A stretch of 64,000 nucleotides of DNA, taken from NCBI RefSeq assembly GCF_026586805.1, contig NZ_JAPFHA010000010.1, positions 62,001 through 126,000 on the forward strand, written 5' to 3'. Shown here one piece after another: positions 20,959-52,140 of the stretch. Made by a program: the position numbers and the translations under genes. The number at the start of each line of letters is the position of its first letter. Position 1 is the stretch's first letter. This DNA comes from Niveibacterium sp. 24ML (lineage in GTDB: Bacteria > Pseudomonadota > Gammaproteobacteria > Burkholderiales > Rhodocyclaceae). A model generated the notes under the pieces. The model was not told the origin of the DNA and did no database searches. It was given only the letters and a program-made list of their open reading frames with translations.

Positions 20959-20966
20959 CCTATCCG

Positions 20967-23261
20967 ATGCGACATAAGTTGATTTCAGGACTGATTCTGT
21001 CCTTGTTTGCTGCGACGGCAGCGCACGCTTTTGATCCCTTTGTTGTCAAGGACATCCGTGTCGAGGGCTTGCAGCGTACCGAGGCCGGTACGGTATTTAA
21101 CTACCTGCCTATCAAGGTCGGCGAGCGGGTCACCGAAGAGCGCGCGGCACAGGCGATCCGCGCCTTGTATGCGACCGGGTTTTTCAAGGATGTACGTCTT
21201 GAGGTGGATGGCAGTGTGCTGGTCGTCGTAATCGACGAGCGCCCTGCAATTGGCTCGATCGAGTTCGAAGGCAATAGTGCCTTTGATAGCGAAAACCTGC
21301 GGAAGGGCTTGCGTGATGCAGGTATAGCTGAATCAAGAATTCTTGACCGTGCGCTGCTGGAGCGGGCCGAGCAGGAACTCAAGCGTCAGTATCTGAACCG
21401 CAGCTATTACGGCGCAACCATTACGACCGAAATTGTTCCGTTGGAACGTAATCGTGTGGCTCTGAAGTTCAAGATCAGTGAAGGCGAGATTGCAGCAATC
21501 AAGCAGGTCAGCATTACAGGGAATAAGGTTTTCTCTGAGTCTGAGTTGAAGAATCAGATTTCCGCGACGCCAAAGTACTGGTTTCCGCCTGTTAATTGGC
21601 TTTCAAAAGGGCACGAGTATTCGAAGCCCAAGCTTCAGGGCGACCTTGAGAACATTCGCAGTTATTACTTGAACCGTGGCTATCTGGATTTTGCGATCGA
21701 TAGCTCCCAGGTTTCGATTACGCCGGATAAGCAGGACGTCTACATCGCGATATCGGTGGCTGAAGGTGAGCAGTACAAGGTTGCGGGCGTCAAGCTGGCT
21801 GGCGATTTGATCGTATCGGATGCCGAAGCGCGTTCCCTGGTGAAACTTCGGCCCGGTGATGTCTTTGCTCGCGACCAACTCACTGAAACGACGCGCCTGA
21901 TTAGCGAACGATTATCAAACGAAGGCTACGCGTTTGCCAACGTGAATGCCGCGCCGGAGCTGGACAAGGCCAAGCGTGAGGTCACCTTCACGATCTTCGT
22001 CGACCCCGGGAAGCGGGTCTACATTCGTCGCGTAAATATTTCCGGTAACACCCGTACCCGTGACGAGGTGATCCGCCGGGAGTTGCGCCAGTTCGAGAAT
22101 GCCTGGTACGACGGCACGAAAATCAAGCGCTCCAAAGCACGCCTGGATCGCAGCGGTTTCTACGATGAGACCAACGTGGACACCCAGCCCGTGCCAGGCA
22201 CCAGCGATCAGGTCGACTTGAACGTAACGGTCAAGGAGCGGGCGACCGGCAACTTCTTGCTGGGTGCGGGCTATTCGACTACGGAAAAGCTCGTGCTGCA
22301 GGGCTCTTTGTCGCAGAACAACCTTTTTGGCTCCGGTAATGCCTTGTCGCTCAACCTGAATACCGGTAAGTCGAATCGGACCTTTGTGCTGTCGTATACG
22401 AATCCGTATTTCACGCCGGAAGGCGTGAGCCTTGGCTACAACCTGTATCACCGCAAGTACAACCCGTCCGCGACAACCAATGTTGCGTACTACCGCACGG
22501 AATCCACCGGTCTCGGAATGACCGTTGGCTACCCGATCGCAGAAGACGACACGGTATTCTTTGGTGCCTCATTCGATTCGACACGTACTTTCGTTGATGG
22601 CACTACGGATGTGCAGTACATCGACTTCGTGAATCAGTTTGGTGAGTTGACGAACACCTTCTTGCTGACGGCATCGTGGGCAAAAGATTCGCGAGACAGT
22701 TACCTCACGCCTTTGTCCGGTTTCTATCAGCGTCTGCAAACCGAAGTGGCGATTCCGCCAGCCGAACAGCAGTACTACCGTATCAACTATCAGGCGCAGT
22801 ATTTCATTCCCTTGTTTTTCAAGGATTCAACACTGCAGTTTCGCGGTAACGTTTCGTATGCTTCCGGCTACGGGGATTTGCCCGTTCCGTTCTACAAGAA
22901 CTACTACGCTGGTGGCATCGGCTCGGTTCGCGCCTACGATGACAACTCGCTCGGGCCGCGGTCATCGAACGGCAATGCCCTCGGCGGCACGCAGCTCTTG
23001 ACCTTTGGTGCGGAGTACTTCTTTCCCTTGCCAGTTGCCAACGCCGGCAAGGGTTTCCGTTTGAGCCTCTATGCCGACGGTGGTCAGGTGTGGGGCGCCG
23101 ACCAGAAAGTTGATCCTGAGGATCTCCGGTATAGTGCGGGCGTTGGTTTGGCGTGGGTCTCGCCAGTCGGGCCTTTGAAGTTCAGCTTTGGTCAGCCGCT
23201 GAACAAGAAGGAAGGCGATCGTACGCAGCGGTTCCAGTTCCAGATGGGCAACATTTTCTGA
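20967..23261 (+). CDS. bamA: Outer membrane protein assembly factor BamA
   Basis: BamA is the core of the machine that folds beta-barrel proteins into the outer membrane. The 764-residue product has a signal peptide (cut after AHA, residue 21) and FDPFVVKDIRVEGLQR, the usual mature start. Five POTRA repeats run to about residue 420. A C-terminal 16-strand barrel follows, with the conserved VRAYDDNSLGPR loop (equivalent to the VRGF/VRGY lock motif) and a final strand ending in GNIF with terminal Phe. It begins 8 bases after rseP and is followed by skp, the usual order. Confidence 0.97.
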   Translation: MRHKLISGLILSLFAATAAHAFDPFVVKDIRVEGLQRTEAGTVFNYLPIKVGERVTEERAAQAIRALYATGFFKDVRLEVDGSVLVVVIDERPAIGSIEFEGNSAFDSENLRKGLRDAGIAESRILDRALLERAEQELKRQYLNRSYYGATITTEIVPLERNRVALKFKISEGEIAAIKQVSITGNKVFSESELKNQISATPKYWFPPVNWLSKGHEYSKPKLQGDLENIRSYYLNRGYLDFAIDSSQVSITPDKQDVYIAISVAEGEQYKVAGVKLAGDLIVSDAEARSLVKLRPGDVFARDQLTETTRLISERLSNEGYAFANVNAAPELDKAKREVTFTIFVDPGKRVYIRRVNISGNTRTRDEVIRRELRQFENAWYDGTKIKRSKARLDRSGFYDETNVDTQPVPGTSDQVDLNVTVKERATGNFLLGAGYSTTEKLVLQGSLSQNNLFGSGNALSLNLNTGKSNRTFVLSYTNPYFTPEGVSLGYNLYHRKYNPSATTNVAYYRTESTGLGMTVGYPIAEDDTVFFGASFDSTRTFVDGTTDVQYIDFVNQFGELTNTFLLTASWAKDSRDSYLTPLSGFYQRLQTEVAIPPAEQQYYRINYQAQYFIPLFFKDSTLQFRGNVSYASGYGDLPVPFYKNYYAGGIGSVRAYDDNSLGPRSSNGNALGGTQLLTFGAEYFFPLPVANAGKGFRLSLYADGGQVWGADQKVDPEDLRYSAGVGLAWVSPVGPLKFSFGQPLNKKEGDRTQRFQFQMGNIF

Positions 23262-23277
23262 TCTTGAGGAGGCGGTT

Positions 23278-23775
23278 GTGAGTGTCACTCGTGCATGTTT
23301 GGCTGTCGCTTTAGGGCTTGGCGTGTCCGCGAGCGCCATGGCTCAGAGCAAGATCGGATTCGTCAACTCTGATCGCGTGCTGCGTGAGTCCGCTCCGGCA
23401 GTGGCGGCCCAGAAGAAGCTCGAGAAGGAATTCGAGAAGCGGGATCAGGAACTCCAGAAGCTCACCAAGCAATTGCAAGGTATGCAAGAAAACCTGGAGC
23501 GCAATGCCGTCACGATGGCTGAAGCGGACCGGAAGGCAAAGGAGCGTGAGTTCGCAGAGTTGACGCGTGAGTTTCAGCGTCGTCAGCGCGAGTTCCGCGA
23601 AGACCTGAATCAGCGCCGCAACGAAGAACTTGCGGGCGTACTCGAGCGCGCCAACCGCACGATTCGCGAGATCGCCGATTCCGAGAAATACGACGCCATT
23701 CTGCAGGATGCGATCTACATTAGCCCGCGCGTGGACCTGACCGATAAGGTCATCAAGACGCTGAACAGCAAGTAA
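23278..23775 (+). CDS. skp: Periplasmic chaperone Skp/OmpH
   Basis: Skp is a trimeric periplasmic holdase for unfolded outer-membrane proteins on their way to BamA. The 165-residue product starts at GTG 23278 with GAGGA upstream. It has a signal peptide ending in ASAMAQ (about residue 23) and the mature start SKIGFVNSDRVL. A long charged coiled-coil arm follows (about residues 40-125), and the C-terminus DLTDKVIKTLNSK is typical. Its place between bamA and lpxD is conserved in gram-negative bacteria. Confidence 0.95.
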   Translation: MSVTRACLAVALGLGVSASAMAQSKIGFVNSDRVLRESAPAVAAQKKLEKEFEKRDQELQKLTKQLQGMQENLERNAVTMAEADRKAKEREFAELTREFQRRQREFREDLNQRRNEELAGVLERANRTIREIADSEKYDAILQDAIYISPRVDLTDKVIKTLNSK

Positions 23776-23781
23776 GCCGAC

Positions 23782-24807
23782 GTGCCAAGTCTGCGAGAGA
23801 TCGCCGAGCGCTTCGGTGGGCGGGTTGTCGGTAATGAATCGGTTGAAATACGCCAGATTGGCAGCCTCGAGTCAGCTCGGCAAGGCGAGATAGCCTTTCT
23901 CGCCAGCCCAAAGTATCGCAAGGCGCTTGCGCAGACTGGCGCCTCTGCGGTGATTCTGCCTCCGGTTGCTGAGGACGCAACCGGCTTGCCGCGCATCATT
24001 GCTGATCAGCCCTATCTTTACTACGCGAAACTCGCGCAGTGGCTCAACCCCGGGCATGCGGTCGCATCGGGGGTACATCCCTTGGCGGTTGTGGAGTCAC
24101 CCGTGCCGGCCAGTGTTGCCGTTGGGCCGTTCGCGTACATCGGACCGGGTTGTACGATCGGCGAGAGCGTCATCATTGGCGCCGGGTGCGTCGTTGAGCG
24201 TGACTGCAGCATCGATAGCGGAACGCGCCTGTACCCGAACGTTTCGGTGTACTTCAATTGCGTGATTGGTCAGCGTTGCATCATCCACTCCGGGGCCGTG
24301 ATCGGCGGCGACGGCTTTGGCTATGCGCGCGAGCGTTCCGGCGCCTGGGTGAAAATTCCCCAGATCGGGCGTGTGGTGATTGGAGATGACGTCGAGATTG
24401 GCGGCAACACGACTGTCGACCGCGGTGCCTTGGACGATACCGTGATCAGCAACGGCGTCAAACTCGACAACATGGTGCAGATCTCACATAACGTGCGCAT
24501 CGGTGAGCACACGGCGATGGCCGGATGCTCCGGTGTCGCAGGTAGTACGCATGTGGGCGCGCGGGTGATGATTGGCGGTCAGGCCGGTGTGATCGGACAC
24601 ATTACCGTTGCTGACGATACGGTGATTTCTTCCCGCACCCTGATCAGCAAAACAGTCAGTAAAGCAGGGGTGTATACGTCTGCAATACCCGCCATGCCAC
24701 ATAACGAGTGGATGAAGAGTGCAGCGCATTTCAGGCATCTGGATGCAATGGCAACACGGTTGCGAGAACTAGAAAAACGCATCGACGAATTGGAGAGCAA
24801 GTCTTGA
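23782..24807 (+). CDS. lpxD: UDP-3-O-(3-hydroxyacyl)glucosamine N-acyltransferase LpxD
   Basis: LpxD adds the second hydroxyacyl chain in lipid A synthesis, from acyl-ACP to the amino group of UDP-3-O-acyl-glucosamine. The 341-residue product starts at GTG 23782. It has an N-terminal uridine-binding domain (to about residue 100), a left-handed beta-helix of hexapeptide repeats (for example [20 protein letters not shown]) and a C-terminal helix. The catalytic His lies in the [20 protein letters not shown] region. Its stop overlaps a possible TTG start of fabZ. Confidence 0.96.
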
Positions 24808-24812
24808 GCATC

Positions 24813-25250
24813 ATGGAAATTGGCGAGGTCATGGAGTACCTCCCGCATCGTTACCCGTTTCTGCTGATTGATCGCGTGATTGCAATGGAGTCCGGTGTGT
24901 CGATCCGGGCTATCAAGAACGTGACCATCAACGAACCGTTCTTTACCGGGCACTTCCCTCACTATCCGGTAATGCCTGGCGTGCTTGTCATTGAGGCGAT
25001 GGCGCAGGCGGCCGCGGTCCTGTCCTACAAAACCCGCGACATGAAGCCGGATGCGAATACCGTTGCGTACTTCGCCGGCATTGACAATGTCCGCTTCAAG
25101 CGCCCGGTGGTGCCGGGTGATCAGCTTGTTTTTGACATCACGCTGGTGAAGAATAAGGGCGATCTCTGGAAGTACAGTGGCGTTGCAACGATTGATGGCC
25201 AAGTTGCCGCCGAAGCGGACCTGCTTTGCTTTTTCAAGAGGATTGCATGA
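24813..25250 (+). CDS. fabZ: 3-hydroxyacyl-ACP dehydratase FabZ
   Basis: FabZ dehydrates 3-hydroxyacyl-ACP in fatty acid elongation, competing with LpxA and LpxD for hydroxyacyl chains. The 145-residue hotdog-fold product has [14 protein letters not shown] and the active-site [20 protein letters not shown], with catalytic His 47 and Glu 61. I chose the ATG at 24813 because it gives the standard ten residues before LPHRYPF. A TTG at 24804 overlaps the lpxD stop and has GGAG at a better distance, so the true start may be three codons earlier. Its stop overlaps lpxA in ATGA. Confidence 0.95.
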
Positions 25251-26017
25251 TTCATCCAGCGGCGATCGTTCATCCGGGCGCGCGCATTGCAGAAGGGGTC
25301 GAGATCGGCCCCTTTTCTGTTATAGGCGAGCATGTCGAGATTGGAGCAGGCACGTCGATTGGCTCGCATGTGGTGATTACCGGCCACACGCGGATCGGGC
25401 GCGACAACCGGATCTTCCAGTTCTGTTCGCTTGGCGAAATGCCGCAGGACAAGAAGTACGCAGGCGAGCCCACGCGTCTGGAAATCGGTGACCGCAACAC
25501 CATCCGCGAGTATTGCAACTTCAATACCGGTACGGTGCAGGATGTCGGCGTAACGCGAATTGGCGACGACAACTGGATCATGGCATCGGTCCACATCGGG
25601 CATGATTGCCAGGTCGGCAACAAGACCATCATGGCCAATAACGTCACCCTGGCCGGTCATGTGTCGGTTGGCGATTGGGCCATTCTGGGCGGCATGACGG
25701 CGGTGCACCAGTTCGCCCGCATTGGTGCACACAGCATGTGTGGCGGCGGGACGATCCTTCTTCAGGATCTGCCCCCTTACGTGATGGTGTCAGGCAATCC
25801 GGCGGCCACGCATGGAACGAATAGCGAAGGCTTGAAGCGGCGCGGCTTTTCGTCGGAGTCGATCATGGCGATCAAGCGGGCGTACAAGACGATCTACCGG
25901 AGCGGACTGACGCTCGAAGAAGCGCGCCTGCAACTGGCCGAAGTAGCTGAAAGCGTTGCGGAAGTGCAGCCCTTGCTTGAATTCATCTCCATTGCCGGAC
26001 GCGGCATCGTTCGCTGA
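25247..26017 (+). CDS. lpxA: UDP-N-acetylglucosamine acyltransferase LpxA
   Basis: LpxA starts lipid A synthesis by moving a hydroxyacyl chain from ACP to the 3-hydroxyl of UDP-GlcNAc. The 256-residue product is a hexapeptide beta-helix with the start [20 protein letters not shown]. The active-site region is [20 protein letters not shown] with the catalytic His just after it ([10 protein letters not shown] and [12 protein letters not shown]). A helical C-terminal cap follows. The ATG overlaps the fabZ stop (ATGA), and the stop overlaps lpxB (TGATG). Confidence 0.97.
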
Positions 26018-27171
26018 TGAGCGCTTGTATTGCCATGGTGGCCGGCGAGGCGTCCGGCGACCTGCTGGGTAGCCGACTCATCCTTGCGCTGAAGCGCCAG
26101 CTTCCTGACGTGCGTTTTGTCGGCATCGGCGGCCCCGCGATGGAGCGGGAGGGGCTTGAGTCCTGGTTCCCTGCCGAGCGGCTCGCGGTTAATGGCATCG
26201 TCGATGCACTGGGCCGCGTACCCGAGTTGTTGGGGATTCGCCACGAGCTGATTGCGCGGATCAAGGCTGAGTCGCCGCTGATTTTCATCGGGATCGATGC
26301 GCCGGACTTCAATCTTGGCGTCGAGCGCAGGCTCAAGGCGAGCGGTATTCCCACGGTTCACTATGTCAGCCCTTCGGTCTGGATGTGGCGGGCAGGGCGA
26401 ATCAAGAAGATCCGGCGTTCGGCGGATCACATTCTGTGTCTGTTTCCGTTTGAGCCAGAGCTTTATCAGCGCGCGGGTGTCGCCGCGACCTACGTCGGGC
26501 ATCCGCTGGCCGATGAGTTTGAGCTTGAGCCGAATCGGATGGAAATGCGTGAGCGCCTGTGTTTGCCGCGGCACGCCGAGATCGTCGCGCTGCTACCTGG
26601 GAGTCGGAATGGCGAAGTGTCGCGGCTTGCGGCAGATTTCGTTGGGGCGGCGAAGCTGATTCACGAACAGCGCCCCGATACGCGCTTCCTCGCGCCTTTT
26701 GTCACCCGCGAGACACGCAGCTTCTTTGAGCAGGCCATGCATGAGGCGGGCTTGCCGAAGGACTTTCCGATCACGCTGATGTTCGGGCACAGCCACGATG
26801 CAATGATTGCTGCAGACGTCGTTCTGCTTGCCAGTGGCACGGCTACGCTGGAAGCCGCCTTGCTCAAGCGCCCGATGGTGATTGCGTACAAGATGCCCGC
26901 CTGGCAATTTGGCTTGGTGCGGCGATTGATGTATCTGCCCTACGTTGGCTTGCCGAACATCTTGTGCAAGGAGTTTGTGGTGCCAGAGCGTTTGCAGGAG
27001 CGTTGCGAACCGGTGGGGCTTGCGGAAGATGTGATTCGTTGGCTCGCCGATAAAGAGGCGACGGCGGCCTTGTCGCAGCGCTTCACCGATGTGCATCTGA
27101 GTCTGCGGCAAGACAATGCAAGCAAGGCGGCGGCGGCGATTTGCGGCATGCTTGGTGGGCGAGCGCGGTGA
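26017..27171 (+). CDS. lpxB: Lipid-A-disaccharide synthase LpxB
   Basis: LpxB joins UDP-diacylglucosamine and lipid X to form the lipid A disaccharide at the inner membrane. The 384-residue product is a GT19 GT-B fold enzyme. It has [17 protein letters not shown] at the start, [19 protein letters not shown], and [20 protein letters not shown]. The C-terminal half includes [13 protein letters not shown] and [20 protein letters not shown]. It starts on the last base of lpxA and its stop overlaps rnhB (GTGA). Confidence 0.97.
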
Positions 27172-27767
27172 CTTTGCCGGCGCGCCCGAGCGGGCTTGTT
27201 GCGGGGGTGGACGAAGCGGGGCGCGGGCCGCTGTGCGGCGCGGTGGTTGCGGCTGCGGTGATTCTTGATCCGGCAAGGCCGATTGCCGGCTTGAACGATT
27301 CTAAGAAGCTCACGGCGCGCAAGCGCGAAGCCTTGGCGGTGCAGATCCGCGAGCAGGCATTGGCATGGTGTGTGGCGGAAGCGAGCCCGGCCGAGATCGA
27401 TCGGCTGAATATCCTTGCCGCCAGCATGTTGGCGATGCAGCGCGCGGTGGCCGGCTTGTCGGTGACGCCGGACGAAGCCTGGATCGATGGCAATCGCTGC
27501 CCATCCTTGAGTTGTGCGACGCATGCGATTGTCGGTGGTGACGCACTGGTTGCGGAGATTTCGGCGGCTTCGATTCTGGCGAAAACCGTGCGTGATGCGC
27601 AGATGGAGGCGCTTGACGCGCGCTATCCGCTGCTCGGCCTGGCGAAGCACAAAGGCTATCCGACTGCGGCGCATCTGGCTGCGCTGCGCATCCACGGGGT
27701 GCCTGACTTCTATCGGCGCAGCTATGCGCCGGTAAGGGCCTTGCTGTCGCAAGCGACGCTCTTCTGA
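27168..27767 (+). CDS. rnhB: Ribonuclease HII
   Basis: RNase HII cuts RNA in RNA-DNA hybrids and removes single ribonucleotides from DNA. The 199-residue product has the first catalytic Asp-Glu in [19 protein letters not shown]. Further acidic ligands lie in [11 protein letters not shown] and [16 protein letters not shown] chose the GTG at 27168 (VTLPARPSG), which overlaps the lpxB stop as GTGA; the open frame before it lies inside lpxB. It is the last gene of the long superoperon. Confidence 0.95.
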
Positions 27768-27814
27768 CCCACCCGATGCCGCGTGGGTGCCGGGCCATGA
27801 CAGCGGGCGCCCGG
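27767..27814 (+). other. Two stem-loops between rnhB and the RNA methyltransferase
   Basis: ACCCAC/GTGGGT (27767-27788) and CCGGGC/GCCCGG (27790-27814) form two 6-bp stems in the 65-bp gap after rnhB. No T run follows either. They could slow or partly end transcription of the superoperon, or mark an RNA-processing site. Confidence 0.3.
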
Positions 27815-27832
27815 TTACTGGAACAGACCTGA

Positions 27833-28621
27833 ATGCTCAAACCGATCACATCGCGTGACAACCCCTTGATCAAACGCTTGCGCAAGCTAGCGGAGTCCTC
27901 GCGCGCGCGGCGCAGCGAGGGCACGGCCTTGATCGAAGGCGTGCATCTTGTGACTGCGGCGCTCGATGCGGGCAGGCCGCTGGGCGAGTTGCTTGTGTCC
28001 GAGTCGGGCAGCAGGGCGCCTGAAGTACAAGGCCTGCTCGACCGCGCGCGTGACGTGTCGGCCTACCTTTTGCCCGATGCCTTGTTCGCATTGATCAGCG
28101 CTCACGAAACGCCAGTTGGGGTGCTGGCAACGATCGGCTGGGGTGTGGCGGTAGCGCCGCCGCCAGAGGACGCCGACTGGTTGGTGCTGGATGGCGTGCA
28201 GGACGCGGGCAACGTGGGCACCTTGATGCGCACGGCGGCCGCAGCTGGAGTGGCTTGCGTGCTGCTGGGGCCGGGATGCGCGCAGGCCTGGGGGCCGAAA
28301 GTGCTGAGGGCCGCGATGGGCGCGCACTTCGTGCTTGATCTGTACGAGGTCGATGATCTGCCAGGCCTGCTTTCGGGCTACGCCGGTCAGATCGCGGCTA
28401 CGCGACTCGATGCCGCGGTTTCCCTGTATGACTGTGAGCTTGTTGGTCCGACGGCTTGGCTATTCGGGGCCGAAGGGCAGGGCCTGTCGCCGATACTGGC
28501 GCAGATGGCGACCCGCGGCGTGGTGATTCCGATGGCGCCGGGGATCGAGTCCCTGAACGTCGCCGCGGCCGCGGCGATCTGCCTGTTCGAGCAGCGGCGA
28601 CAACGTCTGTGGGCCCGGTAG
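27833..28621 (+). CDS. TrmH/SpoU-family RNA 2'-O-methyltransferase
   Basis: A SPOUT-class enzyme that puts a methyl group from S-adenosylmethionine on a ribose 2'-OH of rRNA or tRNA. The 262-residue product has an N-terminal substrate-binding domain with SRDNPLIKRLRKLA and GTALIEGVHLV. The knotted catalytic domain carries motif 1 LDGVQDAGNVGTLMRTAAAA, motif 2 WLFGAEGQGLSP and motif 3 VIPMAPGIESLNVAAAAAI. The target nucleotide cannot be told from sequence. RlmB-like and TrmH-like relatives are all possible. Its stop directly abuts the ppsR stop on the other strand. Confidence 0.9.
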   Translation: MLKPITSRDNPLIKRLRKLAESSRARRSEGTALIEGVHLVTAALDAGRPLGELLVSESGSRAPEVQGLLDRARDVSAYLLPDALFALISAHETPVGVLATIGWGVAVAPPPEDADWLVLDGVQDAGNVGTLMRTAAAAGVACVLLGPGCAQAWGPKVLRAAMGAHFVLDLYEVDDLPGLLSGYAGQIAATRLDAAVSLYDCELVGPTAWLFGAEGQGLSPILAQMATRGVVIPMAPGIESLNVAAAAAICLFEQRRQRLWAR

Positions 28622-33295: not shown

Positions 33296-33997
33296 CTAGC
33301 GGATCGCAGCCGGCAACTGGTCGCCGGTGGGGAGCACACCAAAGCGCGAGAGAAGCACTTCCGCCAGCCAGCAGCCCATCCACACTGCGTAAAAGGCAAA
33401 GATCACGTCGCTCGTGAAGTGACCGCCTTGGACAACGCGGACCAAGCCCACGACTGCGCCTGCGCCGGCAGCGCTGAGCATCCACAGGCGTCGCTTCCGG
33501 GGCGAGCCAAGCCAGCCGAAAGCCATCAGCGCAAACGCGCCGGTGGCGTGGCCGCTGACAAAAGAGCAATTGCGCGCGCATTGATCGGCCGGCTGCAAGG
33601 CGGGCGTGAAGTGCTTGTTGCCGCCAAACGCCTCAACCTGGTGGGGGCGCGCACGACCCCAGTTGTTTTTCAGGCCCGCATCGGTGATCAGCCCTGGCCC
33701 GAGGGCAAAGGCGAGGGCAAGGAAGCCGAACCAGCGCCGGCGCGATGCCAGCCAGCCGCCACGAATCGCGAAACTCGCCAGCCACAAGAGCAGAACGGTC
33801 GCGACGGCAAGACGCGAGCCGCCCCAAACGCCCCAGTAGATCGCTTTCACGGCTATCAGGCGGTCGAGCCAGAAGCCCTCGTTGCCATCGTAGAAAAGGG
33901 CGGTGATAGCCAGGTCCAGCTGCGGCCACAGGCTGAAGATCAGGGCAGTGATCAGGAGCACCGCCAGCAGCAAGGCGCCTTCACGCTTGTCCGGCAT
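33296..33997 (-). CDS. PAP2-family membrane phosphatase, last gene of the lipid/glycan operon
   Basis: A 233-residue inner-membrane phosphatase with about six membrane helices and periplasm-facing catalytic loops. The three PAP2 motifs are present: KNNWGRARP (Lys 110, Arg 117, Pro 118), FVSGH (His 150) and R-x5-H-x3-D (Arg 187, His 193, Asp 197). Val replaces the usual Pro of PSGH, and Val precedes Arg 187 in place of Ser. It overlaps the preceding GT39 gene by one base (TGATG). LpxE/LpxF lipid A phosphatases and undecaprenyl pyrophosphatases share this fold, so the substrate is open. The context favours a lipid A or polyprenyl-linked phosphate. Confidence 0.85.
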   Translation of the reverse strand: MPDKREGALLLAVLLITALIFSLWPQLDLAITALFYDGNEGFWLDRLIAVKAIYWGVWGGSRLAVATVLLLWLASFAIRGGWLASRRRWFGFLALAFALGPGLITDAGLKNNWGRARPHQVEAFGGNKHFTPALQPADQCARNCSFVSGHATGAFALMAFGWLGSPRKRRLWMLSAAGAGAVVGLVRVVQGGHFTSDVIFAFYAVWMGCWLAEVLLSRFGVLPTGDQLPAAIR

Positions 33998-35478
33998 CAG
34001 TAACCCTTGAAGCCTTGCATCAGCCAGACCGAGGTGGTGAGGCTGAAGTCTGGATGGGTCTGCACGCGGATGGTGGCAAGTTTCTCGACCTGCTCGAAGC
34101 GCGGGGCGACCTCATTGGGTTCCCCTTTGCTGAGGTAGAGGATCGCCAAGCCCGGGGTGTTCGGCAGTGAATGGGTCAGTTGGTACTGATCGTTGACCGT
34201 CCGCGCGGGGTTCCAGCTGGCGATGCGCGGCGAGTGCTCGCGCAGCGTGTAAGCCACATGCGCAAGCAAGGTGCGTTCATCGGCAACGATATAGGCATCG
34301 GGATGCGCGGCGCGCATAGGTTCGATAGCCAGCGCGAGTTTGTCCCAGCCTTTCATGCGCTTGAACGGATCGATTTTCGCGGTCAGCGGGCGGTCGGCCA
34401 GATGCAGGATCTGTGGCCACTGGTACACGACCACCATGATCAACAGGTTGAGCGCGAGCGCGGCCTTGAGCCAGGCGATGCGACGCGGCGTGCGCGAGAG
34501 CCAGGCCACGGCCAGCAGGGTGCCGCCAGCGAAGATCGGCCCCGCCCAGTTGGCATTGGCCTCGCTCGTGCTCGCTTGTGTCATAACCAACAGCAGCAAG
34601 GGCAGGGAGCCGGCCAGCAAGAGGCGATCGCCCGGGTGCTGCCAGGCGCTGCGCAGCGTGACGACGGCGCCGATGAAGCCAATGGCCAGCAAGGGGCCGA
34701 TGGATCCGAATTGCGCGCCGATGAACTCAAGCAGGTTGGCATCCTTGTGCTGCTGGGTGATCTCGGCCGTGTGGCGGAAGGTTGGAAAGTCGTTCGCCCA
34801 GTTCCACCAGAGATTGGGCGCCAGAATCGCCAGCGCGACCAAGGCCGTGAGCCAAGGCCCCCGGCTGAGCAAGTGGCGCCGCCCTTCCTGCGTTGCGATC
34901 AACAGTACGGCCGCCGAAAGCGCAAAGGCGGCCATGGTGTACTTCGACATCAACCCCAAGCCGCAGACCACGCCCAGCAAGACCCAGTCGCGGGTGCGGC
35001 CTTGGCTGATGGCGGTGTGAAGCGCCCACAGCGCGGCGGTCCAGAAGAACAGCAGCAGCGCATCGGTTGAAATGAAGAGCCCCAGTGCGCTGGTGATGGG
35101 CAGCGTGAGGAAGGCCAGCGCGCCGATGAGCGCGGTGCGCGTGCCATACAACTGGTGGCCGAGGCCGAACAGCAGAAGCGCCGTTGCCGGGTAGAGGATC
35201 AGCGAGCCTGCCTTGATGCCCACCAGGCCATCGCCCAGCAAATGGGTGCTTGCGGCGATCAGCCCCGCGATCAGCGGCGGCTTGGAGAAGTAGCCCCAGT
35301 CCAGCGCCTTGGCCCAGCCCCAGTAGTAGGCCTCATCGACATACAGCGTGATGCCGGAATGGGTGACTACCCAGATGCGCCAGGCCGTCAGCAGGACGAT
35401 CGCGCCCAGCAGAAGCATCAGCGCCTTGGCGGCGGGTTCTTCGTCGGCGTCGTGCGAGAAAATGCGGCGTTCGGTCAT
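33997..35478 (-). CDS. GT39 (ArnT-like) membrane glycosyltransferase A
   Basis: A 493-residue GT-C fold enzyme with about 11-12 membrane helices in the N-terminal two thirds and a periplasmic C-terminal part. The first periplasmic loop has the acidic catalytic motif YVDEAYYWGWA (Asp 48, Glu 49) and YFSKPPL. Enzymes of this family use a polyprenyl-phosphate sugar to modify lipid A (ArnT, RgtA-D) or proteins (PMT). It starts in the ATGA overlap with the second GT39 gene and ends in the TGATG overlap with the PAP2 gene. The sugar and acceptor are unknown. Confidence 0.87.
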   Translation of the reverse strand: MTERRIFSHDADEEPAAKALMLLLGAIVLLTAWRIWVVTHSGITLYVDEAYYWGWAKALDWGYFSKPPLIAGLIAASTHLLGDGLVGIKAGSLILYPATALLLFGLGHQLYGTRTALIGALAFLTLPITSALGLFISTDALLLFFWTAALWALHTAISQGRTRDWVLLGVVCGLGLMSKYTMAAFALSAAVLLIATQEGRRHLLSRGPWLTALVALAILAPNLWWNWANDFPTFRHTAEITQQHKDANLLEFIGAQFGSIGPLLAIGFIGAVVTLRSAWQHPGDRLLLAGSLPLLLLVMTQASTSEANANWAGPIFAGGTLLAVAWLSRTPRRIAWLKAALALNLLIMVVVYQWPQILHLADRPLTAKIDPFKRMKGWDKLALAIEPMRAAHPDAYIVADERTLLAHVAYTLREHSPRIASWNPARTVNDQYQLTHSLPNTPGLAILYLSKGEPNEVAPRFEQVEKLATIRVQTHPDFSLTTSVWLMQGFKGY

Positions 35479-37019
35479 CGTTGGCGGATCAGGCGGACGC
35501 CGCCTTCGCTGAAGAGGATATCGATCTGCGCGTCAGCAGGAATGCGGTCGGCCCGGGTGATGGCGATTTCGCCCGGCGCGGGCGGACGCGCAGGGGCTTG
35601 CATTTCCCGGTAAACGGCAAAGCTGGGCTGGAAGAAATTCCACTGCACGCCTTGCTCGGTGTAGGACCGGGCGGCCAAGGCCGCGCGCTTGACCGGCCCT
35701 TGCAGGAGATCGCCGACGAATGGCGTCACCACGGTGGCAAGCAGCACGCCCTGAATCGCGGCGATCGCCGCAAGCCGCTGCCAGGCAGCGGTGCGCCAGA
35801 GGGCCGTGATGGCGAGCGCCGCTGCCAAACCGATCAGCATCGGCAGGTAGTAGGCAGGACCGCTGGCTTCGCCATATCGGGCCAGCTGTGCGGCGTAGTA
35901 TGGATCGCCCACCTTGCCCTGGGCCAGCAGGGTGGAGATGATGGTCGGCAGCAGCGCACAGAAAGCCAGCACTGCCAAGCCGGGCAACACGCCCAGCCAC
36001 GCCGAGCGCAGCTTCTCGCGATGGATCGCGATCAACAGGAACAAGGGCGTGCAGCCATACAGTGCGTAATGCGGCAGCTTGGTGCCGGAGAGCGAGAAGA
36101 ACACCAGCACGAAGCCGAACCAGATCCAGAGGAATCTGCGCAGTGGGTCGGCGCAGTCGCTGCGGACACTGCCAAGCGCTTTGGCAAGCGGCGCAAGCCA
36201 CGGGAGCAGCAGCACCGGAACAATGATCAGGTAGTAGAACAGGCTGCCGCCGTGGCCTTCCATCGGGCCGGAGAATCGGCCGACGTTGTGCTTGAGGATG
36301 AAGCCATCAATGAATGCCTGGCCGTGAATCGAGAGCGCCACGGCATACCAGGGGGCGGCTACCGCGACCAGGATGAGCCAGCCGATCGGATCGAATGCCG
36401 CGCGGGCCCAGGCCTTGAATTCACGCCGGCTTGCGCAGTACAGGAATGTCACCGCGACCGGGATCGCCATCGCAATCGGGCCCTTGGTCAGCACGCCCAA
36501 GGCAATCCACAGATACATGCGGCGAAGGGGCGCGCGCCCGCCGGATTCGAGGTGGCGCCAGGCGTCGGTCAGCGCGAGCGCAAGCAGCATGTTCAGCAGC
36601 GCATCCGCGGTGGCCGCACGACCGATCACGAACACGCCAATGCTGGTTGCGGCAACCAGTGCAGCGAACTGCGCGCTTGCACGGCCAAAGCGTGGCCATG
36701 CGAAGTTGCCAACCACGGCACACCACACTGCAGCAGCCAGCGCCGAGGGCAGGCGGAAGGCCCACTCCGATACCCCGAAAAGGCCAACCGGGATGGCTTG
36801 CAGCCAGTAGATCAGGATTGGCTTGTCGAAGCGCGGGACGCCGTTCAGCCAGGTCGAGAGGAAGTCGCCGCGCTCGAACATTTCGCGCGTGGCTTCCGAG
36901 AACGCGCCTTCGTCGACGTCGAAGAGCGGCGCGCCCCCCAGATTGAGCAGCAGCAGGACTGCGGGCAGCAGAAACAGCGTCAGCCGCTCGCGCAGTGTAG
37001 GTGTGGCGCTGTGCTTCAT
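35475..37019 (-). CDS. GT39 (ArnT-like) membrane glycosyltransferase B
   Basis: A 514-residue GT-C enzyme, clearly related to but different from the next gene. The first loop has PLFDVDEGAFSEATREMFER (Asp 36, Glu 37) and FDKPILIYWLQA, closer to the classic ArnT pattern. Many membrane helices follow, then a periplasmic tail. I chose the ATG at 37019, which overlaps the GT2 stop as ATGA; a frame-open start 10 codons earlier lies inside the GT2 gene. It may use the same polyprenyl-phosphate sugar as its neighbour but act on another position or acceptor. That split is an inference. Confidence 0.88.
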   Translation of the reverse strand: MKHSATPTLRERLTLFLLPAVLLLLNLGGAPLFDVDEGAFSEATREMFERGDFLSTWLNGVPRFDKPILIYWLQAIPVGLFGVSEWAFRLPSALAAAVWCAVVGNFAWPRFGRASAQFAALVAATSIGVFVIGRAATADALLNMLLALALTDAWRHLESGGRAPLRRMYLWIALGVLTKGPIAMAIPVAVTFLYCASRREFKAWARAAFDPIGWLILVAVAAPWYAVALSIHGQAFIDGFILKHNVGRFSGPMEGHGGSLFYYLIIVPVLLLPWLAPLAKALGSVRSDCADPLRRFLWIWFGFVLVFFSLSGTKLPHYALYGCTPLFLLIAIHREKLRSAWLGVLPGLAVLAFCALLPTIISTLLAQGKVGDPYYAAQLARYGEASGPAYYLPMLIGLAAALAITALWRTAAWQRLAAIAAIQGVLLATVVTPFVGDLLQGPVKRAALAARSYTEQGVQWNFFQPSFAVYREMQAPARPPAPGEIAITRADRIPADAQIDILFSEGGVRLIRQR

Positions 37020-38068
37020 TCCGGCAGGGCCTGTCCCGGCTTGTGCCATGCGTCGTCTTCGTCAGGGGCGTCCGGGTCGCGAACCCGGTACTGCGATGCG
37101 CCACCCGATTCAAAATAGATGCGAGCGAGGGTTTCGGCGAGCACGCCCGTCGAGATGAATTGAACGGCGGCGATGATCAGGAAGAAGCCCAGTTGCAACA
37201 GTGGTCGTTGCCCGATCGAGGCGCCGGTGAAGAGCTTGAGCGCGGCAAGCCAGCCCAGGATTGCACTGCCGATCACGCCCACCGCCAGACCGATGCCGCC
37301 AAAGAAGTGGCCAGGGCGCGCGCGATAGCGCATGAAGAAGAAGACGAAGATCAGGTCAAGAATCACGCGGAATGTGCGTGAGATGCCGTACTTGCTCTGG
37401 CCGAACTGCCGTGCATGGTGCGTGACGACCTCTTCGGCAATCCGCCGTGGGGTGGTGACCGTCGCCAGCCATGCAGGAATGAAGCGATGCATTTCGCCGT
37501 ACAGACGGACGTTCTTGATCACGCTGGCGCGGAAGGCCTTGAGGCTGCAGCCGTAGTCGTTGAGCTTCACGCCGGTGATGCGGGCAATCAGGCGGTTGGC
37601 GATGCGCGAGGGGATCTTGCGCAGCACCATGCCGTCCTTGCGGTTCTTGCGCCAACCGGCCACCAGGTCAAGGTTCTCGTTCAACAAGCGGCCGACCATG
37701 CGCGGAATGTCGATCGGATCATTCTGCAGGTCGCCATCCATGGTGACGATCACATCGCCACGCGCAGCGTCCACGCCGGCTTGCATTGCGGCGGTCTGCT
37801 TGAAGTTGCGCATGAGCGATACAACCCGGACGTGGGGGCCGTAATGCCGCGCGGCAGCTTCAAGTTCGCCGGGGGTGCCGTCAGAGCTGCCGTCGTCCAC
37901 CAGCAGTAATTCCCACGGGTGCGGGTAGTCGAGCAGGGCTTCATGCACGCGCTTGGCGAGCGGTGCAACGTTTTCGGCCTCGTTGTACATCGGTACGACA
38001 ACCGATAGACGGTGTGCCGGGATCGAGAGGGCGACCGGATGCTCGGTCGGGGTGACGGCTGTATTCAT
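37016..38068 (-). CDS. GT2 polyprenyl-phosphate glycosyltransferase (ArnC/GtrB/RgtE-like)
   Basis: A 350-residue GT2 enzyme that, by family, moves a sugar from a nucleotide donor onto undecaprenyl phosphate at the inner face of the membrane. It has VVVPMYNEAENV, LLLVDDGSSDGT (residues 58-61 DDGS) and the metal-binding TMDGDLQNDP (Asp 111, Asp 113). The FKQTAAMQAGVDAARG motif is typical of dolichol/undecaprenyl-phosphate sugar synthases. Two pairs of C-terminal membrane helices (about 235-275 and 285-310) anchor it. Both ends overlap neighbours by 4 bases (ATGA). The donor sugar cannot be read from sequence. Confidence 0.9.
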   Translation of the reverse strand: MNTAVTPTEHPVALSIPAHRLSVVVPMYNEAENVAPLAKRVHEALLDYPHPWELLLVDDGSSDGTPGELEAAARHYGPHVRVVSLMRNFKQTAAMQAGVDAARGDVIVTMDGDLQNDPIDIPRMVGRLLNENLDLVAGWRKNRKDGMVLRKIPSRIANRLIARITGVKLNDYGCSLKAFRASVIKNVRLYGEMHRFIPAWLATVTTPRRIAEEVVTHHARQFGQSKYGISRTFRVILDLIFVFFFMRYRARPGHFFGGIGLAVGVIGSAILGWLAALKLFTGASIGQRPLLQLGFFLIIAAVQFISTGVLAETLARIYFESGGASQYRVRDPDAPDEDDAWHKPGQALPE

Positions 38069-38979
38069 GATGTGGTTCCGTTTGCCTTGACCGGCCGAGG
38101 GCCGGTCGGGAGCGCTGCGTAGGCCAAAGCCCCGGCACTTACAGCGGTGGCGATGATAACGAGGTGCAAAGCGAGCGCGGCCTGAAGTCCGTTCGCGAGT
38201 GTAATGCCGTGCGGCACCAGTGCGGCTGCGACGCCGGCTTCGTAGGTGCCAAATCCTGCCACACCCTGAACCGGCAGGATGGCGGCAAGCTCGCCGCCGA
38301 GCACGCCGGCGCTGGCAAGCCAGTCAGAACGCCCGAGCAGTGCGGTGAGCAACAGGGTTTGAGCAGAAAGCTTGACGAGCCAGTTGGCGAGCGTCCATGC
38401 CCAGCTGCGGACAGCGCCGCGGGTGGAATGGGCAAGGGCAAGGCGCAGCTTGCCCAGCTTGCCTCGCCAGCCGGTTTGCTCTGCGACATTGGCCGGGTGA
38501 GCCCGTGCCCAGGCCGGCACCGCCCACGCGCTGAGCAGCACGCCAAGGCTCCAGAGCACACGGATGGCCAGATCGAGGCCGGGCCAAACCCATGCAGCCA
38601 GAAGCAAGACGACAAACGCGTCCTGCATCCGCAACCACAGCAGCGACACCAGCGCTCGCCCCATCGGCACGCCAAATTCACGCTGAAGCAGGACCGGCAA
38701 GGCGATCTCGCCCCCGCGGAAGGGGACGACGTTGATGGCGGCATTGTGGGCAGTCGTGACACGCGCCATGGCCCAGAAGTGGCCACGCGAGACATCCACG
38801 AACTCGTCGCTCATGCGCGCAGCACGCAGCAGGTAGCTGAGCAGAAAGCCCGAGAGCGCCAGCGCAAGTACGCTCCAGGGCATCGAGCCCAGGCGTTCGC
38901 CGACGGCGCGCCAATCACCGGAATGCGCAAGCCACGCGAGCAGCGCAAGCGAAATCGCAAGAGCAAGCAGGCGCTTCAA
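38065..38979 (-). CDS. UPF0104/LPG-synthase-TM family membrane protein, possible lipid or lipid-sugar flippase
   Basis: A 304-residue protein with about 7-8 membrane helices of the UPF0104 family (the flippase-like half of lysyl-phosphatidylglycerol synthase). The C-terminal VQGVAGFGTYEAGVAAAL is the family's conserved glycine-rich signature. MRDEF-like loop residues (RMSDEFVDVSRG, then NVVPFRGGEIALPVLLQREF) are also typical. I chose the TTG at 38979. It overlaps the PAP2 stop as TTGA, has GGAG about 10 bases upstream, and gives a clean membrane start (LKRLLALAISLALLAWLA). A role in moving the polyprenyl-phosphate sugar is inferred from its neighbours. Confidence 0.82.
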   Translation of the reverse strand: MKRLLALAISLALLAWLAHSGDWRAVGERLGSMPWSVLALALSGFLLSYLLRAARMSDEFVDVSRGHFWAMARVTTAHNAAINVVPFRGGEIALPVLLQREFGVPMGRALVSLLWLRMQDAFVVLLLAAWVWPGLDLAIRVLWSLGVLLSAWAVPAWARAHPANVAEQTGWRGKLGKLRLALAHSTRGAVRSWAWTLANWLVKLSAQTLLLTALLGRSDWLASAGVLGGELAAILPVQGVAGFGTYEAGVAAALVPHGITLANGLQAALALHLVIIATAVSAGALAYAALPTGPRPVKANGTTS

Positions 38980-39779
38980 GCGGCGGCGCTCCGCTTGAGC
39001 CAGATAGCCCGAAGCGCAACGATGGCACTGCCTACCGCCACGCCTGAAAGCAGCCACTTGAGCGGATCGGCCAGCGGGTAACCGAGATCGGTGCCGGCGA
39101 GGCTGATCCCCATCACCAGCAGTGCCAACGCCATGACTGCTTGCATCGTGAGCTTCTGCCAGACCATCCAGCGGCGGGAAATCGCCTCGCCCGCGGCGCC
39201 GGAGAGCCAACCGCCAGCAGCGCCGACCAGTACATCGAGCGGCCAGTGGGCGCCAACGGCAATCCGCGAAAAAGCCACCAATGCGGCAAGCGGCAGCAGC
39301 ACGCTCGCAAGCAGGGCTGGCCGACGGCCAAAAAACACCAGCGTCGCTGCAAAGGCAAACGCGGTGGTGGCGTGCCCGGAAGGGAATGAGTTCCGGGTGA
39401 GCGTTTCACCGATGATGTGGATCTGGCTGGGGTCGAACATCGCCGCGGGGCGCCCGGCGTCGACCAGTGGTTTGATCGTGTGCGTGAAGCTGCCCGCGAA
39501 TGCGCCGGTGAGCAGTGCGCTGGCCATCAGGCGCGGCGTGTTCTTCAGGGTCGGCGCCACCACCGCATAGGCGCAGGCGCCGGTGCCCAGTACGGTGACC
39601 CAGGACCAGAAGCTCGCCGGGAGCATCGCCGCGCCGCTGTTGAGCGCGAGGAACAGTGGCGTGTTCGTGTTCTGCTGCAGCAGCGCGCCCGCGGCGGCCA
39701 GCAACAGCAAAGGTGGCAGCCAGATCAGCAGCAGACGGGGCAGGGCGGGGCTCGGCGCAGGAGGCGTGGGTTCAGGCAT
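38976..39779 (-). CDS. PAP2-family membrane phosphatase, first gene of the lipid/glycan operon
   Basis: A 267-residue membrane phosphatase with all three canonical PAP2 motifs: KPLVDAGRP (Lys 103, Arg 110, Pro 111), FPSGHATT (His 136) and SRIAVGAHWPLD (Arg 172, His 178, Asp 182). Six or more membrane helices surround them; extra helices follow the last motif, as in some lipid A phosphatases. I chose the ATG at 39779; a TTG at 39800 is also in frame, and neither has a clear ribosome site. A possible extended -10 promoter lies just upstream. It begins the six-gene coupled run. Confidence 0.87.
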   Translation of the reverse strand: MPEPTPPAPSPALPRLLLIWLPPLLLLAAAGALLQQNTNTPLFLALNSGAAMLPASFWSWVTVLGTGACAYAVVAPTLKNTPRLMASALLTGAFAGSFTHTIKPLVDAGRPAAMFDPSQIHIIGETLTRNSFPSGHATTAFAFAATLVFFGRRPALLASVLLPLAALVAFSRIAVGAHWPLDVLVGAAGGWLSGAAGEAISRRWMVWQKLTMQAVMALALLVMGISLAGTDLGYPLADPLKWLLSGVAVGSAIVALRAIWLKRSAAA

Positions 39780-50782: not shown

Positions 50783-52120
50783 ATGTCCTGGTACAGCAAG
50801 GTTGTCTGGTCGGAAGGCTTGTTTCTTCAGCCGCAGCATTTCCAGCAACAGGACCGGCACACGGAATGGTGGGTTGAAGCGCGCACGCGGGCGCTCGCCG
50901 GCCACTTCTGGGGCTTTTCGCACCTGGTGCTGGACGAAGCGGCGCTCGCGGCCGGCAAGGTGGCCATTCTGGAGGCGCGCGGCATCCTGCCCGACGGCAC
51001 TCCGTTCGATTTTCCCAACGTCGATCTGGCGCCCCCGCCGCTGGAATTCCCGGCCGATGCCAAGGATGCCCTGGTCAGCCTGGCTCTGCCGCTCAGGCGC
51101 CCGCAGGCGATCGAAATCTCGGGTGAGGCCGATGCGGCGACGCGGCTTGCGCGATACGAGCCCAGCGAGACCCAGGTGCTGGACGCGCACACGCCCGATG
51201 CCGACTCGGCCCCGATGGAGGTCGCCTATCCGCGTTTGCGGCTTGAGCTTGCCGGGCCGCTGACCGATGCCTTCGTGCAGATCGGTGTCGTGCGGGTGTC
51301 GGAGCGCCGGCCAGACAACAGCTTGCTGCTTGACCGTGGCTACGTGCCGCCGGTGCTCGGCTGCAAGGTGTCGGCGGTTCTCAGCGGCTACCTGAAAGAA
51401 GTCTGTGCTCTAATCCGCCAGCGCGGCGATGCCCTCGCGGCCCGGCTCGGGCAGCCTGGCAGTGGCGGGGTTTCCGAGATTGCCGATTTCCTGTTCCTGA
51501 TGTTCGCAAACCGACATCAGCCGGTGCTCGATCAGTTCGCGCAGCTCTCGCTCTTGCACCCGGAACGTTTGCACGAGCGGCTGCTTGAACTGGCGGGCGA
51601 GCTTGCCACGCTGACGCGCAGCGAGCGCCGGCCCGAGAACTTCCCGGCCTATGTGCACGATGCGCTGGATGCCAGCTTTCTGCCGCTGGTGCGCGAGATC
51701 CGCAAGGGCCTTGCGACGGTGCTGGAACAGAGCGCGGTGCCGATCGAACTGCAGGATCACAAGCAAGGCCGCTATGTGGGCATGATTGCGGATCGCGGCC
51801 TGTTGCGACAGGCGGGTTTCGTTCTGGCAGTGAACGCGCAAGTGCCCGGTGAAACCCTGCGCAGCCGCTTCCCGTCGCAGGCGAAGCTGGGGCCGGTGGA
51901 ACGCATCCGGGAACTGGTCAACCTCCAGTTGCCTGGCATTGCGCTGCGGCCCTTGCCGGTGGCGCCAAGGCAGCTGCCTTACCACGCCGGGTTTTCGTAT
52001 TTTGAGCTCGATGCGACCGGTGATCTGTGGAAGCAGCTTGAAACCTCCGGCGGCCTCGGAATCTATGTGGCGGGCGAGTTCCCTGGTCTCGAACTGTCGC
52101 TCTGGGCGATTCGCGCCTGA
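50783..52120 (+). CDS. tssK: T6SS baseplate protein TssK
   Basis: TssK links the cytoplasmic baseplate to the membrane complex. The 445-residue product has the family start VVWSEGLFLQPQHFQQQDR. SVLLLDRGYVPP-like text (here SLLLDRGYVPPVLGC) and the neck and head region with VLDQFAQLSLLHPERLHERL are also present. FSYFELDATGDLWKQLE lies near the end. It follows tssJ. A 109-bp gap with two hairpins separates it from tssL. Confidence 0.95.
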   Translation: MSWYSKVVWSEGLFLQPQHFQQQDRHTEWWVEARTRALAGHFWGFSHLVLDEAALAAGKVAILEARGILPDGTPFDFPNVDLAPPPLEFPADAKDALVSLALPLRRPQAIEISGEADAATRLARYEPSETQVLDAHTPDADSAPMEVAYPRLRLELAGPLTDAFVQIGVVRVSERRPDNSLLLDRGYVPPVLGCKVSAVLSGYLKEVCALIRQRGDALAARLGQPGSGGVSEIADFLFLMFANRHQPVLDQFAQLSLLHPERLHERLLELAGELATLTRSERRPENFPAYVHDALDASFLPLVREIRKGLATVLEQSAVPIELQDHKQGRYVGMIADRGLLRQAGFVLAVNAQVPGETLRSRFPSQAKLGPVERIRELVNLQLPGIALRPLPVAPRQLPYHAGFSYFELDATGDLWKQLETSGGLGIYVAGEFPGLELSLWAIRA

Positions 52121-52140
52121 TCCGGCTGAACACGCTGGTG

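Follow-up and report, generated by a model that had tools for sequence, protein, structure and literature searches.

A six-gene operon of Niveibacterium sp. 24ML predicted to exchange both lipid A phosphates for polyprenyl-delivered sugars

What might a chain of six overlapping genes, encoding two PAP2 phosphatases, two membrane glycosyltransferases of family GT39, one GT2 glycosyltransferase and one UPF0104 membrane protein, modify in the bacterial envelope? The chain lies on the minus strand of a 64,000-nucleotide stretch of the Niveibacterium sp. 24ML genome (contig NZ_JAPFHA010000010.1, positions 62,001 to 126,000; hereafter the window), which was taken from a 153-kb contig of a 4.6-Mb draft genome. 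The answer favored here, to which a probability of about 0.6 is given, is that the genes form an operon for a two-ended phosphate-for-sugar exchange on lipid A, with the sugar delivered on a polyprenyl carrier. In gene order, the components are as follows:

39779-38976, minus strand: PAP2a (267 amino acids), an LpxE-like PAP2 phosphatase, predicted to remove the lipid A 1-phosphate
38979-38065, minus strand: UPF0104 / LPG_synthase_TM membrane protein (304 amino acids, TTG start), a candidate polyprenyl-phosphate-sugar flippase
38068-37016, minus strand: GT2 (350 amino acids), a polyprenyl-phosphate glycosyltransferase of the ArnC/RgtE type, the common donor maker
37019-35475, minus strand: GT39B (514 amino acids), a GT-C glycosyltransferase of the ArnT fold, the predicted partner of PAP2a
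35478-33997, minus strand: GT39A (493 amino acids), a GT-C glycosyltransferase of the ArnT fold, the predicted partner of PAP2b
33997-33296, minus strand: PAP2b (233 amino acids), an LpxF-like PAP2 phosphatase, predicted to remove the lipid A 4'-phosphate

All six reading frames are open throughout, and in gene order the junctions overlap by 4, 4, 4, 4 and 1 nt (TTGA, ATGA, ATGA, ATGA and TGATG); the gene order and the five stop/start overlaps are exactly those reported in the first-pass annotation, which had been made from the DNA alone. The Pfam domains, in the same order, are PAP2, LPG_synthase_TM (that is UPF0104), Glycos_transf_2, PMT_2, PMT_2 and PAP2, all above the gathering score (72 bits for PAP2 in PAP2a, 81.5 bits against a cut-off of 33.4 for UPF0104, 108 bits for GT2, and 59.5 and 116 bits for PMT_2 in GT39B and GT39A). 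A pattern scan for promoters and terminators revealed no promoters and six terminator-like sites, against 5.5 expected from shuffles, i.e., the background level; since these patterns do not exceed shuffles, it is the overlaps and the conservation that speak for an operon. The order PAP2a-UPF0104-GT2-GT39B-GT39A-PAP2b is kept in all seven genomes of the genus (the window and G001-G006; the G004 copy is cut by a contig end, with its last part on a second contig) at 58-92% identity per gene (tblastn). In six genus regions, overlaps of 1 or 4 nt occur at 22 of 29 junctions; the remaining seven partly hinge on automatic start choice, one of them being a 149-nt gap before PAP2b (L035).

The observations comprise the gene content, the overlaps, the conservation, the tendency to pair, the folds and the catalytic motifs. 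According to the proposed scheme, for which we infer substrate, position, sugar and flipping, GT2 would load a sugar, most likely galacturonic acid (GalA) from UDP-GalA, onto undecaprenyl phosphate at the cytoplasmic side, and the UPF0104 protein, with its MprF fold, would aid the resulting polyprenyl-phosphate sugar across the inner membrane. In the periplasm, PAP2a (LpxE type) would take the 1-phosphate off lipid A and GT39B would add the sugar there, and PAP2b (LpxF type) would take off the 4'-phosphate, with GT39A adding the sugar at that end. The assignment of PAP2a/GT39B to C-1 and of PAP2b/GT39A to C-4' may be right or wrong with about equal chance.

The phosphatases point to lipid A in the first place. 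The best NCBIfam family of PAP2b is LpxF (NF045633), which scores 116.3 bits in a nearly full-length match (residues 11-213 of 233), with the next family at 40 bits; the score lies below the curated cut-off of 400 bits, which makes PAP2b a homologue and not a member by the cut-off rule. The LpxF model is matched by all 22 PAP2b sequences (best E 1.1e-39; next family 2.1e-13). The active site of PAP2b reads K110-x6-RP, VSGH and R-x5-H-x3-D, and the alignment keeps K, R, P, S, H, R, H and D unchanged in 22/22, while two sequences have S in place of the G of SGH. Searches of the PDB gave no match with the PAP2b sequence alone and only weak PgpB and acid phosphatase matches with the PAP2b profile. 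The PAP2a profile (28 sequences), searched against solved structures, finds Aquifex LpxE (6EBU) first, with E 1.6e-27 and 99.7 bits (next chain 52.5), and the single PAP2a sequence matches 6EBU with E 1.1e-8. Its active site, K103-x6-RP, PSGH and SR-x5-H-x3-D, has the catalytic K, R, P, PSGH, R, H and D invariant in 28 of 28 sequences. Aquifex LpxE is described as a lipid A 1-phosphatase and a distant ortholog of Francisella LpxE, the search for it having been prompted by the GalA at positions 1 and 4' of Aquifex pyrophilus lipid A (PMC6581854).

Two loci elsewhere tie these phosphatases to each other and to lipid A synthesis. At L204:5226-6749 (minus strand), a single frame of 508 amino acids is a natural PAP2b-PAP2a fusion, with one half LpxF-like (117.8 bits, NCBIfam) and the other PAP2a-like (249 bits, PAP2a profile); it adjoins GT39A, UPF0104 and GT39B genes, and a GT2 of the module type was not found in this genome, which is 81% complete. 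At L247:5992-8060 (minus strand), a PAP2a homologue (201 bits) overlaps the end of lpxB by 1 nt, downstream of the cluster bamA-lpxD-fabZ-like-lpxA-lpxB (lpxB at 342.8 bits against an NCBIfam cut-off of 190). In a third locus, L042, a single small gene separates a GT39A homologue from an MsbA-like gene that comes after it (44% identity to E. coli MsbA). That small gene, between GT39A and the msbA-like gene (L042, about 10170-10840), encodes a protein resembling tyrosine/dual-specificity phosphatases; a similar one directly follows a GT39 gene at L072:11480-12148. That both PAP2 genes serve solely to recycle undecaprenyl pyrophosphate is rejected in view of the separate BacA of the Niveibacterium genome, the L204 fusion and the L247 overlap with lpxB.

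It could also be supposed that the module glycosylates a protein, O-antigen, hopanoid or phospholipid, the phosphatases serving the polyprenyl carrier. Some GT2/GT39 loci do sit among glycosyltransferase or Wzy-like genes, and GT39/PMT enzymes as a class have many acceptors. Against such targets stand the two kinds of lipid A phosphatase relatives, the phosphatase fusion and the lpxB and msbA-like neighbours, and we regard this explanation as very unlikely.

The second line of evidence concerns the pairing of each phosphatase with its own transferase. A GT2 profile scan of named genomes supplied the best 80 loci listed, to which 20 regions from relatives and the Niveibacterium genome were added; 93 of these 100 loci (L030-L129) hold GT2, with L034, L042 and L045-L049 excluded for a GT2 below the score used. 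The profiles used to class neighbours were derived from the proteins of the window, and they separate well: GT39A or GT39B matches above 250 bits reach no more than 66 bits on the opposite profile, and for strong matches of either PAP2 kind the ceiling on the other PAP2 profile is 34 bits. In the 93 loci, PAP2a is present in 36 of 46 with GT39B and in 2 of 47 without it (one-sided Fisher p 3e-14), and PAP2b in 18/37 with GT39A against 3/56 without (p 1e-6), while the cross pairs display no significant excess (GT39A-PAP2a, p 0.43; GT39B-PAP2b, p 0.15). When each 80% GT2 cluster is counted as one unit (41 units), the figures become 17/18 against 1/23 for GT39B-PAP2a (p 2e-9) and 10/19 against 2/22 for GT39A-PAP2b (p 0.003). 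Directly upstream of PAP2b on the same strand stands GT39A in 18 of 22 cases and GT39B in three.

A second sample comprised 229 genomes drawn from the class and baited with the PAP2 profiles, only matches of at least 120 bits being counted (19 for each phosphatase). Near the 19 strong PAP2b loci, GT39A occurs in six and GT39B in four, and all four PAP2b loci with a direct same-strand module neighbour have GT39A there; near the 19 strong PAP2a loci, GT39B occurs in seven and GT39A in five, and in L233 and L242 the same-strand gene directly beside PAP2a is GT39B. Because this sample is weaker and contains PAP2a-GT39A neighbours, the pairing is a strong tendency within GT2-linked modules and not a law.

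The complete set is not confined to the genus. All six genes occur in 10 of the 93 loci, namely five from the genus together with L067 (Burkholderiales), L068 (Limnohabitans), L077 (Aestuariibacter), L083 (Marinobacterium) and L088 (a gammaproteobacterial metagenome-assembled genome, MAG); an eleventh, L212 (G225:C10), comes from the class sample and brings the non-genus total to six. The window order recurs in L067 and L068. In L077 and L083 it is UPF0104-GT2-GT39B-PAP2a-GT39A-PAP2b, and L212 is built of two divergent halves, UPF0104-GT39A-PAP2b and GT2-GT39B-PAP2a, so that in these three rearranged loci each phosphatase is still beside its own transferase. In L088 the genes are spread over both strands and PAP2a is weak (72 bits). 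At E 0.001, GT39A finds a match in 24 of 61 genomes, the Niveibacterium genome included, and the regions fetched from other family members hold subsets only: GT2-GT39A-PAP2b, or UPF0104-GT2-GT39B-GT39A, or less. The first-pass annotation had named separation of the six genes in related genomes as one refutation of its proposal; this refutation fails for the genus (7/7), but the wider family regions fetched hold subsets. A tblastn search of plasmids with PAP2b returned weak matches only (28 records, all below 60% identity). A third PMT_2 and a third PAP2 protein of the Niveibacterium genome lie outside the operon (G000:C23, L049; G000:C55, L143), and an extra short PAP2-like stretch stands just before GT2 in L081 (about 5957-6590), L091:9361-9969 and L092:6280-6888.

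A number of observations weigh against the exchange at both ends. Concerning the pairing, no pair is significant with 60% GT2 clusters, of which there are only six. On the GT2 tree, from which L040 was excluded for its unread bases, GT39B and PAP2a change in the same sense in 4.2 and in the opposite sense in 0 of six independent pairs, and GT39A and PAP2b in 3.4 and 0.7 of eight, neither being significant in a tree-based independence test that is too small to decide. PAP2b is not near GT2 in 19 of the 37 GT39A loci; in L052, L058 and L076 it follows GT39B, with GT39A absent; in the class sample, 13 of the 19 strong PAP2b loci are without GT39A inside about 6 kb or up to the contig end, and PAP2a comes right after GT39A in L239, L243 and L244. 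Concerning the link with lipid A, a screen of 154 loci (2.24 Mb) for 16 lipid A/lipopolysaccharide (LPS) genes found a match in 14, and such a gene lies within 1 kb of a module gene in L042 and L247 only (2/154, a figure that comes without a background rate). No curated equivalog cut-off of NCBIfam is reached by any of the six module proteins, and they are therefore not filed as LpxE, LpxF, ArnT or ArnC. As to PAP2a itself, its best NCBIfam models are undecaprenyl-diphosphatases (44.6 bits against a cut-off of 250), models for undecaprenyl pyrophosphate (C55-PP) phosphatases match 27-28 of the 28 PAP2a sequences, and the NCBIfam LpxE model PRK09597 leaves the window PAP2a unmatched and matches 4 of the 28. 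Moreover, LpxEs are described as acting both as lipid A 1-phosphatases and as C55-PP phosphatases (PMC6581854), so that the LpxE and undecaprenyl-diphosphatase matches of PAP2a need not conflict.

The matches of PAP2a to C55-PP phosphatase models are one ground for a rival view that confines the action on lipid A to the PAP2b-GT39A half (4' position), with PAP2a recycling undecaprenyl pyrophosphate or serving another lipid and GT39B with UPF0104 directed to another acceptor such as the LPS core or a glycolipid. By curated models the link of PAP2b to LpxF is stronger than that of PAP2a to LpxE, and GT2-GT39A-PAP2b stands alone, without GT39B or PAP2a nearby, in L037, L039, L056, L057 and L041, the first four in genomes lacking UPF0104. 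However, PAP2a is fused to PAP2b in L204 and overlaps lpxB in L247, the Niveibacterium genome has its own BacA, and the PAP2a profile prefers Aquifex LpxE over PgpB. In addition, GT39 enzymes release undecaprenyl phosphate and not C55-PP, which counts against recycling by PAP2a. Such a half-acting module is thus unlikely, if somewhat more credible than a non-lipid A target. The first-pass proposal that both lipid A phosphates are swapped for sugars falls short of proof and is strengthened by the LpxF-like and LpxE-like phosphatases, the pairing, the fusion and the lpxB overlap.

The transferases and the donor maker resemble enzymes of lipid A decoration. In a sequence search of solved structures, Cupriavidus ArnT (5EZM) is the sole match of GT39B (E 7.4e-28). 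The predicted model of GT39A (predicted local distance difference test, pLDDT, 92.9) has ArnT 5F15/5EZM at the top of the Foldseek list (E 1.4e-9; query TM-score, TMq, 0.64 for 5F15), the top match being ArnT with bound undecaprenyl phosphate. ArnT is also the best named NCBIfam family of both GT39 proteins, with 142.8 bits for GT39B and 50.6 for GT39A, both below the cut-off of 567 (NF009784), and their identity to E. coli ArnT is 27-29% over 333 and 180 columns. Over 326 columns GT2 is 35% identical to E. coli ArnC, and its best-scoring family is ArnC (NF007986; 196 bits, below the cut-off of 529); among the matches listed, the nearest named GT2 is from a Rhodocyclales MAG (77%). This likeness of both GT39 proteins and GT2 would also fit a module of the ArnT kind, which puts sugar onto the lipid A phosphates, as is done with 4-amino-4-deoxy-L-arabinose (L-Ara4N) or glucosamine in other bacteria, the PAP2 enzymes doing something else. 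Against it, two PAP2 genes overlap in the chain, unlike in the E. coli arn operon, the six genes include no ArnE or ArnF, and no full-length ArnA is present in the Niveibacterium genome. Of all the explanations weighed here this one appears the least probable. The L-Ara4N pathway in particular is rejected because full-length ArnA is absent, on a check that covered ArnA and not ArnB or ArnD.

As for the sugar that the exchange on lipid A would deliver, no more than about 130 bp separate an epimerase-like gene from the module in L067, L068, L076 and L084, and in L062 one starts about 30 bp behind GT2. Comparison with solved structures covers three of these five loci (L067, L068 and L084): 5U4Q, labelled in the PDB as a dTDP-glucose 4,6-dehydratase, ranks first in all three; 6ZL6 and MoeE5 (6KV9), which we take to be UDP-glucuronate 4-epimerases, are among the top three for L068 and L084; and in the L067 ranking 6ZL6 comes second, with MoeE5 in sixth place after WbgU entries. 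The Niveibacterium genome has one homologue, on contig C27, 66% identical to the L067 epimerase, so that the use of UDP-GalA is permitted and not proved; homologues occur in 45 of 61 genomes (the Niveibacterium genome included), many of them without the module, which weighs against the proposal. Galacturonic acid as the donor sugar is accordingly proposed tentatively, with the odds a little short of even. The six operon genes include no sugar-nucleotide gene, and the description of the system as complete in the first-pass annotation is apt for the membrane steps and not for donor synthesis, the UDP-uronate epimerase homologue being on contig C27. Neighbours of the distant GT2s in L118 and L123, which have no GT39 or PAP2 near, resemble GDP-mannose dehydratases by sequence pattern.

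The UPF0104 protein is the candidate for the passage of the loaded carrier across the membrane. Its AlphaFold model (pLDDT 92.6) was compared by Foldseek, and among the 50 matches listed only three MprF structures have a probability of 1.00, with TMq 0.55-0.56 and E 0.014-0.09, none reaching E 0.001. Thirteen residues are invariant in 39 UPF0104 sequences, including R52, R55, E91, R117, D120, K203 and H272; the charged ones would suit a translocase. The only PF03706 match of the Niveibacterium genome is the operon protein itself, and the single GtrA of that genome adjoins another GT2 in an apparent polysaccharide cluster. UPF0104 is near GT2 in 46 of the 93 loci and, among module genes, stands next in front on the same strand in 42 of these 46; in several distant loci GT2 has behind it another gene of the UPF0104 type (cluster c1, of which one member was tested). 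In Mesorhizobium (L059, L061 and L062), UPF0104-GT2 pairs occur with GT2 65-67% identical to that of the window and with neither PAP2a nor PAP2b close by; in L059 a PMT_2 protein stands ahead of UPF0104, and L062 holds its homologue.

UPF0104 is found near GT39B in 34 of 46 loci and in 12 of 47 without GT39B, a tie that the independent pairs on the tree do not support. A search with the whole Pfam family detected no PF03706 in G009, G017, G062 and G063, which carry GT2-GT39A-PAP2b, nor in G064 (GT2-GT39A) or G061 (GT2 alone). These absences count against a general requirement for the protein, and since the subset genomes lack PF03706, it is not indispensable for the GT39A-PAP2b half; its main use may be in the GT39B half, or its place may be taken by other flippases. 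That a UPF0104 flippase would be new, as the first-pass annotation had it, is too strong a statement and is rejected as a new idea, for flippase activity was predicted for all COG0392/UPF0104 proteins in 2015, with archaeal PMT/STT3-like neighbours noted (PMC5898192), and the UPF0104 protein GpgF was named a predicted flippase in 2025 (PMC12713373). MprF of P. aeruginosa is characterized as a promiscuous scramblase (PMC11980842), and movement of another lipid by UPF0104 is therefore plausible. Within the open-licence literature, no paper demonstrating a polyprenyl-phosphate-sugar substrate for an MprF/UPF0104 protein was found. The broader proposal, that UPF0104 is a dedicated polyprenyl-phosphate-GalA translocase and that the one-piece double replacement gives Betaproteobacteria and Gammaproteobacteria an outer membrane free of phosphate and capped with sugar, is doubtful for the present.

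Other genes of the window serve as context. Among them are genes for the lipid A backbone:

23782-27171, plus strand: lpxD, lpxA and lpxB with a fabZ-like frame between (the lpx genes above the NCBIfam cut-off, fabZ by position alone)

These lpx genes lie 6 kb from the module on the opposite strand and are part of a widely conserved gene cluster, so their nearness to the module may be due to chance. At 13785-28621 (plus strand), uppS (16828), lpxD, lpxA and lpxB were confirmed in one cluster, and the frames between, judged by their first residues, resemble the usual rpsB-tsf-pyrH-frr-cdsA-dxr-rseP-bamA-skp-fabZ-rnhB. Farther along, at 50783-61414, the type VI secretion genes tssK, tssL, tssM and tagF are followed by Ser/Thr kinase-like and PP2C phosphatase-like genes, and the segment 62001-63000 has G+C of up to 0.723 and a GC skew of 0.20, unlike the remaining window.

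Through divalent cations, lipid A phosphates bridge the outer membrane; polymyxins and the TLR4/MD-2 receptor bind to these phosphates. If the proposed exchange is real, phosphate-free lipid A would be more widespread than the literature cases found (rhizobia, Caulobacter, Aquifex and Bdellovibrio); the operon would offer a compact genetic system for studying the passage of a polyprenyl-linked sugar through the inner membrane, and the matching of phosphatases with transferases yields position-by-position predictions for lipid A. Open-licence literature searches retrieved no description of the six-gene operon or its product in Betaproteobacteria and no structure of betaproteobacterial lipid A with uronic acid; for Rhodocyclus, the LPS sugars are listed without uronic acid (PMC8954225). 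The parts are thus of known kinds, and it is the complete set in one operon for which no description was found.

Among known systems, the rhizobial routes are the closest in design. There, LpxE with RgtF at C-1 and LpxF with RgtD at C-4', fed by RgtE, produce GalA-substituted lipid A (PMC7663294, PMC5644692, PMC7795004); Mesorhizobium loti has rgtE, rgtF and lpxE in one cluster (PMC5644692), and a cluster of rgtE with rgtF occurs in Oligotropha, Azorhizobium, Mesorhizobium and Aquifex (PMC7663294). As in the operon described here, there is a phosphatase and a transferase per position and one polyprenyl-phosphate sugar synthase, the likeness to RgtD and RgtF being by analogy only; here, in contrast, both position pairs, the donor maker and UPF0104 are joined in one overlapping operon. 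Aquifex, with GalA in place of both phosphates and an LpxE (6EBU) that the PAP2a profile finds first, has the same kind of end product as is predicted here, but no lpxF homologue was detected in A. aeolicus (PMC7663294), whereas the present operon has an LpxF-like gene. The MprF flippase domain and the UPF0104 proteins GpgF, AglD (C-terminus) and YbhN belong to the same Pfam family and fold as the operon protein; MprF moves aminoacyl-phospholipids, while a polyprenyl-phosphate sugar is proposed for the operon protein. Finally, arnBCADTEF of E. coli, which adds L-Ara4N, has in ArnC and ArnT relatives of GT2 and of the GT39 proteins, but the operon of Niveibacterium dispenses with ArnA, ArnB, ArnD, ArnE and ArnF and carries two phosphatases instead.

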